Assembly (NCBI GenBank): GCA_026400835.1
Contig: JAPLOA010000069.1
Span: forward strand, 62,001-126,000
From: Planctomycetales bacterium
GTDB taxonomy: Bacteria; Planctomycetota; Planctomycetia; Planctomycetales; Planctomycetaceae
Length of the DNA: 64,000 nt
Direction of reading: 5' to 3'
The notes beneath the pieces are model-generated. The model was not told the DNA's origin, did no database searches, and saw only the letters and a list, made by a program, of their open reading frames with translations. Position 1 is the stretch's first letter. Each line of letters starts with the position of its first letter. The translations under genes were made by a program, and so were the position numbers. Below are positions 13,206 to 22,625 of this stretch, in pieces.

Positions 13206-14603
13206 CTATCGAACCGGCGGCTTTGGTCGCAGGGTCGACGAGAAGATTTCTCCCGCGATAAGCTTGCCCGCAACAATGCCATCGGATGCATCAAACGGCC
13301 AATGAATGCCAAGATAAATCCGGCTCCATGAGTTCTCCATGATGGCTTCTTCGAGATTGCGATAGGTGCGAGTCACAATCGGTCGTGGCCTGCCGTCGCT
13401 GCCTCTGTTTACTCCGTTGTATTCATCGGAAGTAAATGAGAACTGAATTCCGGCAGTGCCGTAGAATCGGGCCGTCATATTTAAGGCCGCCGTACCGAAA
13501 GCGGAATGGCCGGAGGAGTAAGCAGGAAATGGTGGTGTGAAGTCGACGCCATCGCCGGCTCCGTTTGTAGCTGGTGCTCCCAGCGGACGCCAGGCTGGAT
13601 CGCCAATGGTGTAGATGTTCGTGTCATTGTTGCCCTGACGAATTCCGATGACCGGTCGCCAGAGTTCGTAATAGTACTTTGTGTACCAACACTGAATTCC
13701 TGCGTCTGCCATTGCGAGGTTCACCAGAGCGAAAAGGCGTGCATTCTGTTCTGTGGTGTTGCGTCTTTGGATCGCAATTGTCCGAACAACCTGATTGTAA
13801 AGACGTGGAGGTGTTCCAAGGCCGGGTACTCCATCATACGCCCAGAAGATTCCCGTGATAGTATCCCTCGGGCTTCGCAGAGTCGGATACTGGCCAGCAG
13901 CTCCTCCCCAGTTGAGCAGTGTCTGATAGGCAACGGCGTATTCAAAAGAATTGAGCGCGGGAGGAGGTGGTGACAGATGTGAATGGATATTGGAAATCAC
14001 AAACGGATCAACATAACCCCAGTGTGGTGTGTTAAATCCCTGATTGGGATGCAATGGATCCGGCCGATGGTAACCAGGCAAAGTGCTGACGTTATAGGGA
14101 AGATTCAGGTTCGAGTTGTCGTTCCTGCGATCATTCAGAATCGCGAGGGCCACTTTCTTCCCCAGATCAATCCCTGTTGTGCGTGGCGTTCCTGCAGCAA
14201 CACTGCTCATCGCGTTGGCGTAGGCTGTACGGATCCTTGTCGCCTGCTGAGGATACAGTGACAACAACGTGTCCTGTGCAGCTGCAGAGACCGCCGCTGT
14301 TGTGTTTGCTGAGTTATAGCCGCTCAACTCGACAAGGTATGGACTGTATTTGCGGTGGATCGAATTCCAGGCATCAAACATCGCCACGGATATGATCGCG
14401 AATGCTCGTGATGTTCGAGTCGGGCCGCCCTGATCCTGAATCAAAAGGCGACTGTCGCCGACGTTCATATCGAGCATCACCTGATTCCAGACCAGGATAA
14501 TATCGGCGGATGCATTGTAGGGCGGCAGCGATTGAGCAAAACCTCGATCCGGGGCGATCAGAACCAACGCGCAGCACAGCACCAGCAGCAAACGACGGAA
14601 CAT
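13206..14603 (-). CDS. Exported vanadium-dependent haloperoxidase family protein (PAP2 superfamily)
   Basis: 465 residues with a signal peptide (hydrophobic 4-17, AQS near 23). The vanadate/phosphate-binding signature is complete: KX6RP (Lys309, Arg316-Pro317), SSGHSAF with Gly365-His366, and SRX5HX3D (Ser427-Arg428, His434, Asp438). The family includes vanadium haloperoxidases, which oxidise halides with hydrogen peroxide, and related acid phosphatases. The usual PSGH motif has Ser in place of Pro, a common variation. The length and the N-terminal helical region favour haloperoxidase-like over a small PAP2 phosphatase. GGGAG lies 9 bp upstream of the ATG. It is a lone gene facing the DUF2617-like gene. 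Enzymatic activity is inferred only. Confidence 0.87.
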   Translation of the reverse strand: MFRRLLLVLCCALVLIAPDRGFAQSLPPYNASADIILVWNQVMLDMNVGDSRLLIQDQGGPTRTSRAFAIISVAMFDAWNSIHRKYSPYLVELSGYNSANTTAAVSAAAQDTLLSLYPQQATRIRTAYANAMSSVAAGTPRTTGIDLGKKVALAILNDRRNDNSNLNLPYNVSTLPGYHRPDPLHPNQGFNTPHWGYVDPFVISNIHSHLSPPPPALNSFEYAVAYQTLLNWGGAAGQYPTLRSPRDTITGIFWAYDGVPGLGTPPRLYNQVVRTIAIQRRNTTEQNARLFALVNLAMADAGIQCWYTKYYYELWRPVIGIRQGNNDTNIYTIGDPAWRPLGAPATNGAGDGVDFTPPFPAYSSGHSAFGTAALNMTARFYGTAGIQFSFTSDEYNGVNRGSDGRPRPIVTRTYRNLEEAIMENSWSRIYLGIHWPFDASDGIVAGKLIAGEIFSSTLRPKPPVR

Positions 14604-15286: not shown

Positions 15287-16054
15287 ATGACCATCGACTG
15301 GGAAGCATTTACCAATCACACACTGACAACTGCCGAAGTGCGGCTGCTGGGGATGGTGGATGTTCCGTCTGTGCTTGCGTTGCAGAAGTTGATGGTCCAC
15401 GAGGTCCGACTTCAGAGCCGGACCAATGCCGCGGTTCTGATCTGCGAACATCCTCCAACGTTGACTGTAGGTGAAGGAGCGACACTGCTCGAACTTCCTG
15501 CGTCTCCCAGGGAGCTGGAGTCTCGACTGATCGCGGTCCATAAACTGCATCGCGACGGCCACGCTATTCTCCATCAGCCAGGACAACTTGCCGCTTATAT
15601 CGTTGTGTCGCTGCCGGAATGCAGCATGAGCGTCGACGAATATCGCGGCTGCCTGCAGCGAGCGGTTGTAAAAACCTGTGAAGAAGTTCAGGTGGTTGCA
15701 TCAATTCAGCCGTCTGATCCCACAGCCGTTTTTGGTCGCCATGGTGTTGTTGCGGAAATTGGAATTCACGTTGACAATGGTGTCACCAGCTTCGGGATCT
15801 TTCTGAATGTAAGCCCTCGTCTGGATGAAGCACGTGAAATCGGTCGCGGAATGCTGGGACAGAAAGTCTCGTCATTGAACGCAGAGCGAGTCCGCCCGAC
15901 TCAAATGCCGCAGGTGCGATCTGCTTTAATTCAGCACTTGTGTGAAGAACTGGGTTATCCTGACTATCATTTGCACACTGGTCATCCTTTTTTGAAACGA
16001 ACTCGGACCCTGATCCATGACAAGTTTGCCAATCCTCAATCAGCCGACGAATGA
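15287..16054 (+). CDS. LipB-like protein (lipoate/octanoate transferase fold) lacking canonical catalytic residues
   Basis: 255 residues from the ATG at 15287; a TTG at 15212 is an alternative. No strong ribosome binding site is seen. The fold signature of octanoyl-ACP:protein transferase is clear: CEHPPTLTVGEGA (53-65, cf. ExHxPVxTxG), RDGHAILHQPGQL (89-101, cf. RGGQVTYHGPGQ) and IGIHVDNGVTSFGIFLNVSP (158-177, cf. the LGLRxRxGxxxHGLALNV block). The Lys of the family's K-I-x-x-G motif is Val154 here, and the catalytic Cys of the PCG motif has no counterpart (RGML, 187-190). It overlaps lipA by 38 bp, so a role in lipoylation is likely. Either it is a pseudoenzyme, it works by another mechanism, or it is a distinct planctomycete branch. 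Four other Cys (53, 112, 122, 131) could be alternatives. Confidence 0.78.
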   Translation: MTIDWEAFTNHTLTTAEVRLLGMVDVPSVLALQKLMVHEVRLQSRTNAAVLICEHPPTLTVGEGATLLELPASPRELESRLIAVHKLHRDGHAILHQPGQLAAYIVVSLPECSMSVDEYRGCLQRAVVKTCEEVQVVASIQPSDPTAVFGRHGVVAEIGIHVDNGVTSFGIFLNVSPRLDEAREIGRGMLGQKVSSLNAERVRPTQMPQVRSALIQHLCEELGYPDYHLHTGHPFLKRTRTLIHDKFANPQSADE

Positions 16055-16958
16055 AACGCCTGTTGATGAGTCTGCACTTTCGGGTGTGAATATCATCGCC
16101 GGCGGACCCGTGCGCCGGTTACCTCGCTGGCTGAAGCGTCCGTTACCTCAGCCCGGAATGGCCTACACCAGCGACGTGATTTCCGATCTTAAACTGGAAA
16201 CTGTCTGCGAAAGCGCGAAGTGTCCGAATCGCACGGAGTGCTGGTCTCAGAAGACCGCCACGTTCATGATCGGCGGTAACGTTTGTACTCGCCCCTGCGG
16301 TTTTTGTTCCGTGCCGAAAGGCAAGACGGAGAGACTGGAGCTGGACGAACCAGAACGAGTTGCCGAAGCAGCAGCTCGTCTCGGGCTGCAGTATGTCGTG
16401 ATTACGTCGGTGACTCGTGACGATCTGAAAGACGGTGGTGCCGAGCATTGGTATCGTACCGTCATCGCTGTCCGTGAAAAGACGGGTGCTCAGGTCGAAG
16501 TCCTTGTGCCGGACTTCCTGGGTAACCGAGCCGCGATCAGTCGCGTTATCGAATCGCGTCCGGATGTGTTCAATCACAATACGGAAACCGTTCCTCGTCT
16601 ATATCACCGCGTCCGCCGCAATGCCGACTACCAGCGAACTTTGGATCTACTGAAGCAGGTGAAGGACGAAGCACCTGATATGCCAACGAAGAGCGGCCTG
16701 ATGCTGGGACTCGGGGAAAATCGCGATGAGCTGATGGATGTATTTGCCGACTTGCGAGCTGTCAATTGCGACATGCTGACGCTGGGACAGTATCTGCAAC
16801 CAACTCCCGAGCATCTGCCGGTCGAACGATATCTTCCTCCAGAAGAGTTTGATGAGATCGGCGAGATGGCTCGCAAGCTCGGCTTTGGCATGGTCGCCAG
16901 CGGCCCATTCGTGCGAAGCAGTTATCACGCCGGTGAGATGGCTGAGCAGATGGCGTGA
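16017..16958 (+). CDS. lipA: Lipoyl synthase LipA
   Basis: 313 residues. This radical-SAM enzyme inserts two sulfurs into protein-bound octanoyl groups to make the lipoyl cofactor of 2-oxoacid dehydrogenases and the glycine cleavage H protein. Both iron-sulfur clusters are visible: the auxiliary cluster motif CESAKCPNRTEC (Cx4Cx5C) and the radical-SAM motif CTRPCGFC (Cx3Cx2C). The downstream blocks ITSVTRDDLKDGG, NHNTETV and LGQYLQPT are typical. The Arg-rich LPRWLKRPLP preceding the catalytic core is also characteristic and supports the upstream ATG, which lies inside the end of the LipB-like gene (38-bp overlap), implying translational coupling. It is convergent with the small membrane gene that follows. 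Assignment is secure. Confidence 0.96.
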   Translation: MTSLPILNQPTNETPVDESALSGVNIIAGGPVRRLPRWLKRPLPQPGMAYTSDVISDLKLETVCESAKCPNRTECWSQKTATFMIGGNVCTRPCGFCSVPKGKTERLELDEPERVAEAAARLGLQYVVITSVTRDDLKDGGAEHWYRTVIAVREKTGAQVEVLVPDFLGNRAAISRVIESRPDVFNHNTETVPRLYHRVRRNADYQRTLDLLKQVKDEAPDMPTKSGLMLGLGENRDELMDVFADLRAVNCDMLTLGQYLQPTPEHLPVERYLPPEEFDEIGEMARKLGFGMVASGPFVRSSYHAGEMAEQMA

Positions 16959-18175: not shown

Positions 18176-18577
18176 AAATCAGAGCCTCAGCGGATGTCTT
18201 TCGAGTCGTGGGGACACGATGTATCTGAACGCACGTCTGCCGAGCAAAAATGCTCGAAGAGATGCGGAATTCAGCCGGAAACAGGAATCCCGGCTCCGGA
18301 AGTGTCGCAAACCCAACGTTCCGGAAGCAAGAGTAAACGACGTTTCGGCTCGGAATCGACCGACCCTGGGGCAATTCTGCGGGTTAGCGAACGGATATCG
18401 AGCATCAAAAAGGCTGTCTCCTGGTCAGTTGAAGTCTTTACGGGTATTCTCCCGGCCGCTTGCAGGCCGTCGATTTGAACCGTAGTGCCGACTTCAGTCG
18501 GCATTGAGGGCCGTAATCTGCACTTGAATCACGACCCCAGCTTCCCTGACCCTCCAAAACACAACCAGGAAATAACC
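18176..18577. other. Divergent intergenic region upstream of RNase PH
   Basis: About 400 bp. No convincing gene. Contains a hairpin AGTGCCGAC-TTCA-GTCGGCATT (18484-18505) and, before it, a CGGCC-rich dyad near 18450-18468. Promoters for both flanking genes should lie here. Confidence 0.5.
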
Positions 18578-19294
18578 ATGCCCCGCCACGACGATCGCTC
18601 GCCGGATCAGCTACGCCCGATTTGCATTCAAAAAGGATTCACAAAGACGTCAATCGCCAGTGTGCTGTTTCAGGCCGGATCCACGATGGTTTTGTGTACA
18701 GCGAGCCTGGAAAAATCGATTCCTCCATGGCGAAAATCTCGCGTCGAAGGAGCACCGGTGCTGGGCTGGGTTACGGCGGAGTACAACATGTTGCCCGGCA
18801 GCACGTCACCCCGAAAACAACGAGATCGCTCCAAAGTGGATGGTCGCACCACCGAGATCCAGCGTCTGATCGGACGAAGTTTGCGGGCCGTCGTGGATTT
18901 CGAAGCTCTGGGCGAGCACACGATTACGATTGACTGCGATGTCCTGCAGGCCGACGGAGGAACTCGAACGGCCAGCATCACCGGAGGATATATTGCCCTC
19001 GCAGAAGCTGTGAAGCAGATCAATTCATCTCGCCCCATTCTGCGCGATTCAGTGGCCGCGATCAGCGTCGGCGTTGTGGACGGCACTCCGGTTCTGGATC
19101 TCGATTACAAGGAAGACAGCACAGCAGAAGTGGACATGAACGTCATCATGACGGGTGCCGGAAAGTTCATCGAAGTTCAGGGCACAGCGGAAGGTGCACC
19201 GTTCGATCAGGATGCTCTGAATGCGATGCTGGACCTTGCAAAGTCCGGCATTCGCCAGTTGACGAAACTCCAGCAGACGGACAAGCTCTCTTAA
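18578..19294 (+). CDS. rph: Ribonuclease PH
   Basis: 238 residues from the ATG at 18578, preceded by AGGAAA; an in-frame TTG further upstream at 18485 adds 31 residues that are not part of the family. RNase PH uses phosphate to trim 3' ends of tRNA precursors and some other RNAs. The sequence shows the canonical start (R.DxRxPDxLRP), [42 protein letters not shown] and the LDYxED block (DLDYKED). Length is typical (238 vs ~240). It stops 16 bp before the convergent kinase gene ends, so there is no room for a separate terminator hairpin. Assignment is secure. Confidence 0.96.
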
Positions 19295-19310: not shown

Positions 19311-22300
19311 CTATGGTTCTAGGCTGCCGGGAATCGCGATGGTATGCCCGGTTTGGTCCCACACAACAAGAGTATTGCCGTCCATCGTAAACTTCATCCC
19401 GGCGACAGACTCAATTGGCAGTGGCTCGAGCTGAAGGAGTTCTCGTCCTACGACAACATCCCACAGCTTGACCACGCCTTGGTCGTCGCCAGTTGCAATA
19501 ACGCGATCATCCGTAGAGATCGCTGTTGCCCTGATTTTGCCAATGTGACCCGTCAACCGGTGACGCAACTTGAGAGACTCCCCATCCCAGAGGCATAACG
19601 TCCGATCGTGAGAGACGGAAACTAGATGACGACCATCTGAACTGATCAGAATGGCCGAGACTGTCGTATGATGAGCACTCAGTTCCGCATAAGGCGTTGC
19701 GTTCAGATTCTGAATCTCACGAACCTGAAGAGTATTCAAGCCATGGCTGGCAGTGATGATCCATTGACCATCCGGCGAGATCGTTGATGCAGACTGATTC
19801 GACAACCGCAAAAGAATCCCACCGTCTTCCGTATTGACGACCGCAAGTTCATCATCATAACTCTGAGCAACGGCCGTTCTTCCCAAAGAATCCACGGCAA
19901 GCCGGTAAACGCTCGACGATTCGAAAACCGGAATCACCCTTGGGCTGTCAGAAGACTCACGAGGCATCATGATCAGTCGCCCCTGACGATCACCGGCAAT
20001 CAGACTTTCCGAATTGGCAGCCATCGTGATCGCGGTGATTTGGCCATCGGCCGCTTGAGGAGCAAAGCCATTTCCGGAATTCACGTCGAGAATCGCGGAT
20101 CCAGGATCGTGATCTGCGGGGATGACGATGGCGGATTCTCGAGGCGCAGGGGCCAACCAGTTCGGCCCAAATGCCTTATCCTCGGAACCTCGGCACAACT
20201 CAAGAACCGTGTTGCGGGGTGATATTCTCCAGCGTCGAATGACACCAGCTCGATCCGCAGTCAACAGAGTCTCCGCTCCCTGGTCATCTTCTGCGGTCTT
20301 CGACTGCCACATTACATAAGAAATCGGCTTTTGATGTCCCCCCAGTCGTCGAAGTGGAGCCCATGACTCCGGAGCGTTTTCCGAGCTGACCGCGTCAGCG
20401 TCAAACAAGGTAACGGCGCCTCCTCGGTCTCCTGCCGCAATAACCCCATCGCGAGAACATGCGACGGCATGAATTGCATCAAGCCCCTTGAACTCAGTCA
20501 GGATTTGCCCGCTGGCAAGATCACAAAGCCGCAAGCCTCCATCTCGACCGGCGACGACGACTCTTTTGCCGTCCGGTGTAAAATGAGACATCGTCAGAAC
20601 GCTGTCAAAACCAATTCGAATAACCGGTTCAAAGTCTTCCAGCCTGAAAAGGAAAACATTTCCGTCGCTCCCCGTCGTGAGGATAGAACTTCGGTCTGGA
20701 GACATTGTCATGTGTTCGATGGCTCCCTCATGCGGAGTTGGGATCCTGCGTAACAACTTTCCGGCATCGGCATCCCAAAGCCCCAACTCCGAACGGTCTT
20801 CACATGACACGAACTGATGCGTCCCGGGCAGGAAAGCAACCGTGGAGACATCCATCTGCGGATCAACGTTGATCAGATGCAGAAGGTGATGAGTCGCGGC
20901 ATCCCAGATTGCAATATGCCCGTTGTCTCCGGTCGTTACCAGAATTGTCCGATCGTCAGACCAGTGAAAGCTGCTGAGCTCGCCCTTCGTTGCCTGTAAG
21001 AACAGGACGTCATTCGCAGAGCCGTTCTTCGAAACGGCTCGAATAGCGCCGTGGCTGTCCGCCGACAGAATTTCGCCATTCAGCGGCGACTCCTGCAACC
21101 ACCAGATGGATTGTCCTCCGTTAAGAATCGTCTCGTTTGGGAAAGTGACGCGGCTGTTTAGGTATCTCCATGCAAAATGTGAGACGCCCTGTCCGGCCGA
21201 GCCGAGCAGTTTATGTTTGCCAAGAATTCGAAATGCTCCCTGAGCATCACCGCTTTTCCATGCCAAAGAAGCAATCTGAATATCTGCAGCCAGCAGAAGA
21301 TCCTGAGCACTCTCATAGTTCTGATCTGCAAGTGTGCGAAGAGATTCAGACTGCTGGACCGTCTTATCGAGCTTAGCCACGTTGAGACGCAGGTGCTGAT
21401 TCGACGTAATGAGATCGCCCTGAAGCTTATTCAGCGATCGTGTATAGCTGACCGCGAGTACCAGCATGCAGCACACGAGAAAGCCGGAAACCAGAATCAG
21501 CGAGGCGATCAACGGCCTGCGCTGGCTCCACTTCACCAGGGCTCGCCACATCGATGGACGACGCGCTTTGACAGGATGGCCGGAAAGGAAACGTGTCAGA
21601 TCTTCCGCCAACGCTCCGGCCGAGTCATAACGCTGGGACGGCTGCTTTTCCAGACATTTGAGACAGATAAGGCTGAGGTCCTGATCAATCCCTGGATCAA
21701 TCATGTGGGGGGCAATTGGATCGGACTCAACGATCAGCCGCAGCGTTTCCGGAGTCGATGATGAGTCAAATGGAGGTCTTCCGACCAAAAGCGTGTACAG
21801 CGTTGCTCCCAGAGAGTAAATGTCAGACGCTTCGCTGGCCGATCCACTCGACGACTGAATAATCTCCGGGGCAAGGTACCGAGGAGTTCCGATCAACTGA
21901 CTTGTCATCGTCTCCGCAGTCTCTGCCTCCAGCAATTTGGCAAGGCCAAAGTCTCCCAGTCTCGGCACGAAGGGAAAGTCAGCTCCGGGCTGAGATTGAT
22001 CAGGGAAGAGAAAGACATTGCCCGGCTTAATGTCGCGGTGCAGAATGCCGCGCGAATGGCTGTAATGAACCGCAAGTGTCAGAGTTCTGACGATCTCAGC
22101 TGCCAGTCGAGGAGACACGGAGGTCTTTCGTGAAGTCAGCCATTCCGAAAGTGTCGGTCCATCACACCAGGCACAGGCCAGATACGGCAAGTCTCCGTCT
22201 TCCCCGGTCTCGAAGACACTGATGATGTTGGGGTGATCCAGACTTGCAACCGCTTTTGCTTCTGTAACGAACCGTCGCCGCAGTTCACTATTCATCAATG

Positions 22301-22625
22301 AATGCGGTCGAGGAACTTTCAGAGCAATCTGTCGATTCAGGTCAGGGTCCCGTGCCAGATAGACAACGGCAAAGCCTCCTGACCCCAGGACCGACAGAAT
22401 CTCAAAGCGTCCTATGCGATCCGGAGCCCACGATGGGATGGCTTTGACTCGACGCGGCACCACCGCTTCCAGAATCTGTAAAGCCTTCTGACCAACCGTG
22501 ACCTTTTTCAGCAGATCGGGATCTGTTTCCAGAACCAGCGTATCAGGAACTCGCCCCGCGCGCAATGACTCCTCGTAATGCAGCAACGAATTCAGCAGAG
22601 AAACTTCGGACGAAGGGGCCATCAC
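19311..22625 (-). CDS. Serine/threonine protein kinase with WD40 repeats
   Basis: 1104 residues. Eukaryotic-type kinase domain at ~73-350: glycine loop GSGGFAVVYLA (81-91), Lys103, HRDIKPGN (195-202) and DFG (224-226), with an activation segment ending in APE. A single membrane helix follows (~375-398) and the outer C-terminal region is a long run of WD40 repeats (~480-1100), interspersed with GH..SIXG-type blocks such as the terminal SVSHDRTLCLWDG. Planctomycetes encode many such kinase-propeller fusions. It starts at GTG (22625) or ATG (22622), with AGGAG 10 or 13 bp upstream. The sigma factor gene lies 24 bp upstream, so they form an operon and kinase and sigma factor may be functionally linked. 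Confidence 0.94.
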   Translation of the reverse strand: MMAPSSEVSLLNSLLHYEESLRAGRVPDTLVLETDPDLLKKVTVGQKALQILEAVVPRRVKAIPSWAPDRIGRFEILSVLGSGGFAVVYLARDPDLNRQIALKVPRPHSLMNSELRRRFVTEAKAVASLDHPNIISVFETGEDGDLPYLACAWCDGPTLSEWLTSRKTSVSPRLAAEIVRTLTLAVHYSHSRGILHRDIKPGNVFLFPDQSQPGADFPFVPRLGDFGLAKLLEAETAETMTSQLIGTPRYLAPEIIQSSSGSASEASDIYSLGATLYTLLVGRPPFDSSSTPETLRLIVESDPIAPHMIDPGIDQDLSLICLKCLEKQPSQRYDSAGALAEDLTRFLSGHPVKARRPSMWRALVKWSQRRPLIASLILVSGFLVCCMLVLAVSYTRSLNKLQGDLITSNQHLRLNVAKLDKTVQQSESLRTLADQNYESAQDLLLAADIQIASLAWKSGDAQGAFRILGKHKLLGSAGQGVSHFAWRYLNSRVTFPNETILNGGQSIWWLQESPLNGEILSADSHGAIRAVSKNGSANDVLFLQATKGELSSFHWSDDRTILVTTGDNGHIAIWDAATHHLLHLINVDPQMDVSTVAFLPGTHQFVSCEDRSELGLWDADAGKLLRRIPTPHEGAIEHMTMSPDRSSILTTGSDGNVFLFRLEDFEPVIRIGFDSVLTMSHFTPDGKRVVVAGRDGGLRLCDLASGQILTEFKGLDAIHAVACSRDGVIAAGDRGGAVTLFDADAVSSENAPESWAPLRRLGGHQKPISYVMWQSKTAEDDQGAETLLTADRAGVIRRWRISPRNTVLELCRGSEDKAFGPNWLAPAPRESAIVIPADHDPGSAILDVNSGNGFAPQAADGQITAITMAANSESLIAGDRQGRLIMMPRESSDSPRVIPVFESSSVYRLAVDSLGRTAVAQSYDDELAVVNTEDGGILLRLSNQSASTISPDGQWIITASHGLNTLQVREIQNLNATPYAELSAHHTTVSAILISSDGRHLVSVSHDRTLCLWDGESLKLRHRLTGHIGKIRATAISTDDRVIATGDDQGVVKLWDVVVGRELLQLEPLPIESVAGMKFTMDGNTLVVWDQTGHTIAIPGSLEP

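Follow-up and report, generated by a model that had tools for sequence, protein, structure and literature searches.

LipB is a textbook enzyme of lipoate synthesis and performs the step before the sulfur insertion by LipA. In the stretch of DNA analysed here (the window, 64,000 nucleotides of a Planctomycetales bacterium, G000:C28:62001-126000 in a genome of 7.58 Mb), a LipB-like gene stands directly before lipA, and the original prediction held that its product has neither the catalytic Lys nor the catalytic Cys. This raises the questions of whether the loss is real, which protein transfers octanoate instead, and what a LipB without its dyad is kept for. The features of the two-gene unit are given below, with the codons placed by alignment; the positions of Arg89, His96 and Cys53 are named in PMC9307952, and "the clade" means the group of dyad-less homologues described further on.

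15287 to 16054, + strand: LipB-like coding sequence without the catalytic dyad, 255 aa, ATG start, from the open reading frame and profile matches
15443 to 15445, + strand: codon of Cys53, at the position of E. coli V41 and LplA W37
15551 to 15553, + strand: codon of Arg89, the acyl-pocket Arg (E. coli R71), kept in 79/79 of the clade
15572 to 15574, + strand: codon of His96, the acyl-pocket His (E. coli H78), kept in 76/79 of the clade
15746 to 15748, + strand: codon of Val154, aligned with K135 of E. coli LipB
15848 to 15850, + strand: codon of Gly188, aligned with C169 of E. coli LipB
15917 to 15919, + strand: codon of Arg211, Arg in 76/79 of the clade and in 5/43 catalytic LipBs
15983 to 15985, + strand: codon of His233 in the C-terminal tail, His in 70/79 of the clade and a gap in 27/43 catalytic LipBs
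16017 to 16054, + strand: overlap of the two genes, 38 bp, assuming that lipA starts at the ATG at 16017
16017 to 16958, + strand: lipA, lipoyl synthase, 313 aa, TIGR00510 357.7 bits against a cut-off of 310.25

Both open reading frames are present, and the predicted 38-bp overlap holds if lipA starts at ATG 16017; the other in-frame lipA starts before the next ATG are TTG 16026, GTG 16086 and GTG 16110. When the window was compared with the two relatives closest to it, synonymous divergence was lower in the LipB-like gene (pS 0.18 and 0.23, 15287-16054) than in lipA (pS 0.33 and 0.38, 16017-16955). As for the neighbours, judged by eye, we take the 465-aa protein at 13206-14603 (- strand) to resemble a vanadium haloperoxidase or PAP2-type phosphatase, the frame at 18485-19294 (+ strand) to resemble ribonuclease PH, and the 1104-aa protein at 19311-22625 (- strand) to resemble a Ser/Thr kinase with WD40-like repeats.

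The predicted kinship with LipB was borne out. PF21948 matched the window protein with 66.4 bits (cut-off 27), and the solved LipBs 1W66, 2QHT and 2QHS (E 1.5e-9 to 3.2e-9) were its sole PDB sequence matches with E <1e-8, but TIGR00214 gave 70.3 bits, which is below the equivalog cut-off of 83.55. Foldseek gave 1W66 and 2QHS as best matches, from an AlphaFold2 model of low confidence (mean pLDDT 57.8) that was built from 10 close sequences and had pLDDT <50 at residues 56-98 and 175-200, so the place of Cys53 cannot be read from it. Alignment with E. coli LipB (L068) put Val154 in the column of K135 and Gly188 in that of C169, which agrees with the claim that the Lys is replaced and that no Cys is at the usual position. 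The further claim, that the usual Tyr-His-Gly block is altered (LHQPGQ), stood in part, as the neighbouring Tyr and Gly differ but His96 corresponds to E. coli H78 and is thus unchanged. By inspection, the window protein had neither LipM motif (the CF Cys and the K-x-x-G-S-A-Q Lys); by inspection and the LipB alignment, it also lacked the RRxxGGG loop and the Lys (K133) of LplA, with RDGHAILH in place of the loop and Val154 for the Lys.

To count these changes, 79 distinct homologues of the dyad-less clade were used, 55 from searches of close relatives and 24 from a class-wide TIGR00214 search. They come from six families (f1 to f6) of the window's class and four named records; identical open reading frames were collapsed, and the duplicates L204, L217 and L223 were excluded. 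The 43 catalytic LipBs, all from the phylum, comprised 3 inside the class and 40 outside it (30 listed loci and 10 hand-picked lower-scoring ones). The C169 column held Cys in 0/79 clade members and the K135 column held Lys in 1/79 (L021); both residues were present in 43/43 catalytic LipBs. The clade has R 25, Q 20, V 18, P 6, L 5, M 2 and single others in the Lys column (n = 79). What is conserved in the clade is the absence of Lys and Cys; the Val/Met state as such, whose conservation had been in question, is not. No conserved Lys/Cys pair was found elsewhere in the protein: no Lys column was at 75% or more in the clade and the only such Cys column was Cys53, so a shifted catalytic pair was ruled out. 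A sequencing or annotation error was ruled out as well, since the dyad loss is common to 79 sequences from many genomes. A quick tree of 115 rows was calculated with the active-site columns removed and with eight near-copies and L204, L217 and L223 excluded. It showed that one branch with SH-aLRT 100 splits 71 dyad-less from 44 dyad-bearing rows, with E. coli among the dyad-bearing, and the dyad-bearing LipBs of the class (G253, G274, G392) grouped with the other dyad-bearing rows. Two close relatives of the window gene (L034 and L037, 98% and 81%) are in MAG records titled Candidatus Kuenenia, and these titles may be wrong.

Linkage to lipA was scored where a same-strand lipA frame starts -700 to +500 bases from the LipB-like stop. 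By this measure, lipA lies directly downstream of the dyad-less LipB in 76/79 (one of the other three ends at a contig end), compared with 6/43 catalytic LipBs plus one LipB-LipA fusion. Tighter linkage to lipA accompanies dyad loss. The observation is confirmed and extends beyond one genome: there is a LipB-derived clade that has no dyad and is linked to lipA, and much of this planctomycete class retains the gene before lipA despite the loss. The neighbouring genes were listed at ten loci of 18-20 kb, and Pfam was run on seven open reading frames of one locus. The fusion (L200, G253:C1:4942303-4943742) is a catalytic LipB joined to LipA in a single 544-aa open frame.

The gene is under constraint. 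In the 8/9 window pairs with unsaturated dS, the dN/dS of the LipB-like gene was 0.038-0.228 (0.038-0.136 at an identity of at least 69%, 0.210-0.228 in the two most distant pairs), and that of lipA was 0.017-0.060 in 7/9 window pairs. A pseudogene was ruled out by these low values. Besides the Arg and His listed above, the acyl pocket has a clade-specific feature at Cys53: the V41 column is Cys in 73/79 of the clade versus 8/43 catalytic LipBs. Its counterpart in LplA, Trp37, touches the lipoyl group, according to PMC9307952. Other pocket columns changed in the clade. T76, found in 43/43 catalytic LipBs, is mostly hydrophobic, and the H150 column has His in 42/79 and Phe in 28/79, the window protein with Phe. 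Because of the purifying selection, the kept pocket Arg and His, and the clade-specific Cys53, Arg211 and His233, a new job is suggested rather than decay.

As for the question of whether the genome holds another lipoyl transferase, there is a candidate that seems able to transfer octanoate. There are two PF21948 proteins in the window's own genome, the LipB-like protein and exactly one other, at G000:C37, which is 267 aa long and has EPFLCF and KIVGSAQ, that is, the CF Cys and the Lys are intact. An NCBIfam scan gave this protein only ligase matches, all below their cut-offs, so the LipM name is based on the motifs. Among 49 LipM-like proteins read, the CF motif was present in 48 and the Lys in 47, with one protein cut by a contig end. 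A LipM-like protein was found in 41/41 surveyed genomes with a dyad-less LipB; one of these proteins is the cut one, and another, in G041, is the only LipM-like protein of its genome and is weak (40.6 bits, Arg for Lys). In the phylum sample, 27/27 class genomes had a LipM-profile match. Outside the class 80/168 genomes matched the LipM profile, some together with an over-cut-off LipB (e.g. G072, G125), so LipM alone does not make the LipB dyad dispensable. In G253, G274 and G392, the other PF21948 protein does not count as LipM-like in our sense, as it has no CF motif and its score with the LplA-like profile exceeded that with the LipM profile. Some genomes of the class have proteins of a third, LplA-like group, which was defined by alignment (L069-L087); these keep the Lys but have no Cys at the LipM position, and the PF21948 search found none in the window's own genome.

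Four proteins of the own genome are candidates for carrying lipoate: GcvH, a second GcvH-like protein, a frame of 394 aa, and one of 556 aa in which two biotinyl/lipoyl domains were found; from domain and length, the 556-aa and 394-aa frames are possibly E2-like subunits. The second GcvH-like protein (G000:C27:36944-37249, L275) is divergent, with 63.9 bits versus 138.6 for the first. A gcvP open reading frame (gcvPB, glycine cleavage) adjoins the LipM-like gene in 23/53 genomes and in 0/13 of the own genus (loci L129-L138, L180, L263-L266 and others), and in G035 the gene order is gcvPA, gcvPB, lipM.

To see how far the LipB-like protein is dispensable, 23 of the class genomes without a LipB match were re-searched with the clade's own profile. 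Nothing was found in 22 of them, and G053 gave one marginal match, on its LplA-like protein. In these 23 genomes lipA was above its cut-off in 17 and split in one (G277), and five had no lipA at all, three of the five belonging to the own genus. Since 17/23 keep lipA, the LipB-like protein is not needed by LipA everywhere. The only PF21948 protein is LipM-like in five genomes with lipA and without the LipB-like gene (G028, G280, G296, G434, G455), and LplA-like in G297, which also has lipA. In some lineages, LipM and LipA thus seem to suffice, which makes the LipB-like protein accessory. A LipA tree that included 47 lipA genes with a dyad-less neighbour had 11 label changes, at least 5 of them forced by starred branches, although this was a quick tree with a long-branch warning. 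The LipAs of G253, G274 and G392, whose LipBs bear the dyad, fell outside the LipA clade of the rest, and three LipAs of family f67 were also outside the class LipA clade, grouping with L243 of G392. Because 14 of the 17 LipAs without LipB were scattered inside the 61-row class clade, the tree favours repeated loss of the LipB-like gene, rather than replacement of LipA by transfer, as the probable reason for its absence.

The original prediction had offered two alternatives: either octanoyl transfer works by a different chemistry, or the protein is a non-catalytic partner and a transferase of the LipM/LplA type is encoded elsewhere. The evidence favours the second, because a LipM-like protein with Cys and Lys is encoded in the own genome and one was found in all 41 surveyed genomes; the first fits less well but keeps a foothold, because Cys53 is conserved at an acyl-pocket position, though no conserved Lys replaces the lost one. 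The reading we prefer, to which we would give about an even chance, is that the window protein is a LipB-derived pseudoenzyme, that LipM octanoylates, and that the pseudoenzyme holds the octanoyl arm or the lipoyl domain for LipA. The LipB of the window's lineage would have lost its Cys/Lys dyad with a LipM-type octanoyltransferase present to load the lipoyl domains, and would have kept its acyl-pocket frame while becoming tied to lipA as a two-gene unit. Its ligand, with which it would not react, would then be the octanoyl arm or else the octanoylated form of the lipoyl domain or of GcvH, and this it would hold or present to the LipA encoded by the next gene. As reported in PMC9307952, E. coli LipB K135A/C169A still binds octanoyl-ACP (KD 36.4 uM) and also binds octanoyl-CoA. 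By analogy, the natural dyad-less LipB could bind octanoyl without transfer, because the E. coli double mutant binds and the pocket Arg and His are kept. Being encoded as one unit with lipA, the protein would most likely serve LipA's step. We infer as most likely that the protein transfers no octanoyl, that it binds the arm or domain and that it contacts LipA. Judged from the alignment, the altered pocket of the clade (T76, H150) would count against the holding of octanoyl. The genomes that keep lipA but have no such gene, the LipM-profile matches outside the class and the weak LipM-like protein of G041 also speak against the preferred reading. A more specific version, which would be a new arrangement for lipoate assembly, is improbable as a whole. 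In it, the former acyl pocket of the pseudoenzyme would grip the octanoyl arm during the work of LipA. Cys53, at the position of LplA Trp37 and so presumably near the tail end of the chain, would contact the sulfur-receiving carbons and steady the arm, or the intermediate with one sulfur, through the two insertions.

Cys53 could also mean that the protein is still an acyltransferase with moved chemistry, which we consider unlikely. Here Cys53 would be the nucleophile, and octanoyl or lipoyl would be passed from LipM-loaded GcvH to E2, as LipL does. The position of this Cys in the pocket and its enrichment in the clade agree with such a role, as do the gcvP frames beside the LipM-like gene and an own genome with only two proteins of the fold and biotinyl/lipoyl frames of E2-like length. 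But six clade members have no Cys53, no conserved Lys stands in for K135, and the five lipA-bearing genomes named above have no PF21948 protein besides a LipM-like one. Furthermore, Trp37 of LplA presumably sits at the tail end of the pocket, away from the carbonyl. The LipM of B. subtilis is specific for GcvH and depends on LipL, as described in PMC10332631, which would suit this relay.

The kept Arg and His would also suit a protein that senses or carries octanoyl-ACP: its former donor site would take up octanoyl-ACP, and it would then either signal to LipM or LipA or supply one of them. The binding of octanoyl-ACP by the dyad-less E. coli mutant points the same way, but its affinity is only moderate, and the gene order shows no output partner besides lipA; we regard this explanation as rather improbable. 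We give slightly less probability to the idea that the protein assists the LipM-like transferase as a subunit, as LplB does for archaeal LplA. Bipartite LplA-LplB ligases are known (PMC10332631), and a LipM-like protein accompanies the dyad-less LipB in 41/41 genomes, but the gene is linked to lipA (76/79) and not to lipM, the two genes of the own genome are on separate contigs (C28 and C37), and class genomes that have no dyad-less LipB can still have a LipM-like protein. That the gene is a relic under loss, retained only through joint translation with lipA, is hardly credible: it overlaps lipA in the window and is absent from several lineages that keep lipA, but its dN/dS is low in the window pairs with unsaturated dS, its clade has newly conserved residues, and it is present in all six class families read.

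Compared with known systems, the pseudoenzyme that we favour is nearest to LipB itself (TIGR00214; E. coli; 1W66, 2QHS, 2QHT), with which the window protein shares the fold branch, the Arg of the RGG loop, the His, the Gln and the place beside lipA. Unlike LipB, it is without the Cys and Lys, is under the equivalog cut-off, has its own Cys53, Arg211 and C-terminal tail, and occurs besides a LipM-like protein. The E. coli K135A/C169A mutant (PMC9307952) loses the same two catalytic residues, but it is laboratory-made, whereas the natural protein diverged further, in the pocket too, and the binding of the mutant is known, whereas the natural protein is known from sequence. With LipM and LipL of Firmicutes it shares the superfamily and the pathway, and the G000:C37 protein is LipM-like; the window protein belongs to the LipB branch, however, and is without the Cys and Lys of LipM. 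LplB of the bipartite lipoate ligases (PMC10332631) and the window protein would both be non-catalytic helpers in lipoate attachment, but the window helper would derive from a catalytic fold and pair with LipA.

In the part of the literature searched, no description of a dyad-less LipB, of a LipB pseudoenzyme or of planctomycete lipoate synthesis was found. The survey of lipoate systems with TIGRFAM and Pfam models in PMC10332631 reports co-occurrence of LipB and LipM as very rare and notes LipM genomes without LipL; the string "Planctomycet" does not occur in its main text. The dyad-less LipB may bear on a question raised there, namely how the remaining lipoyl proteins are supplied in genomes that have LipM but no LipL, and it offers a natural case for roles of LipB besides catalysis. 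It also matters for annotation. TIGR00214 matches were found in 217/297 class genomes, and the LipB cut-off was exceeded in 46/297; among the best 30 of the 217 loci, which were read at residue level, 27 were dyad-less. Where the dyad is gone, homology annotation would thus assign the wrong function. The TIGR00214 cut-off cuts through the dyad-less clade, with some members (e.g. G052 and G351) above it and others, the window protein included, below.
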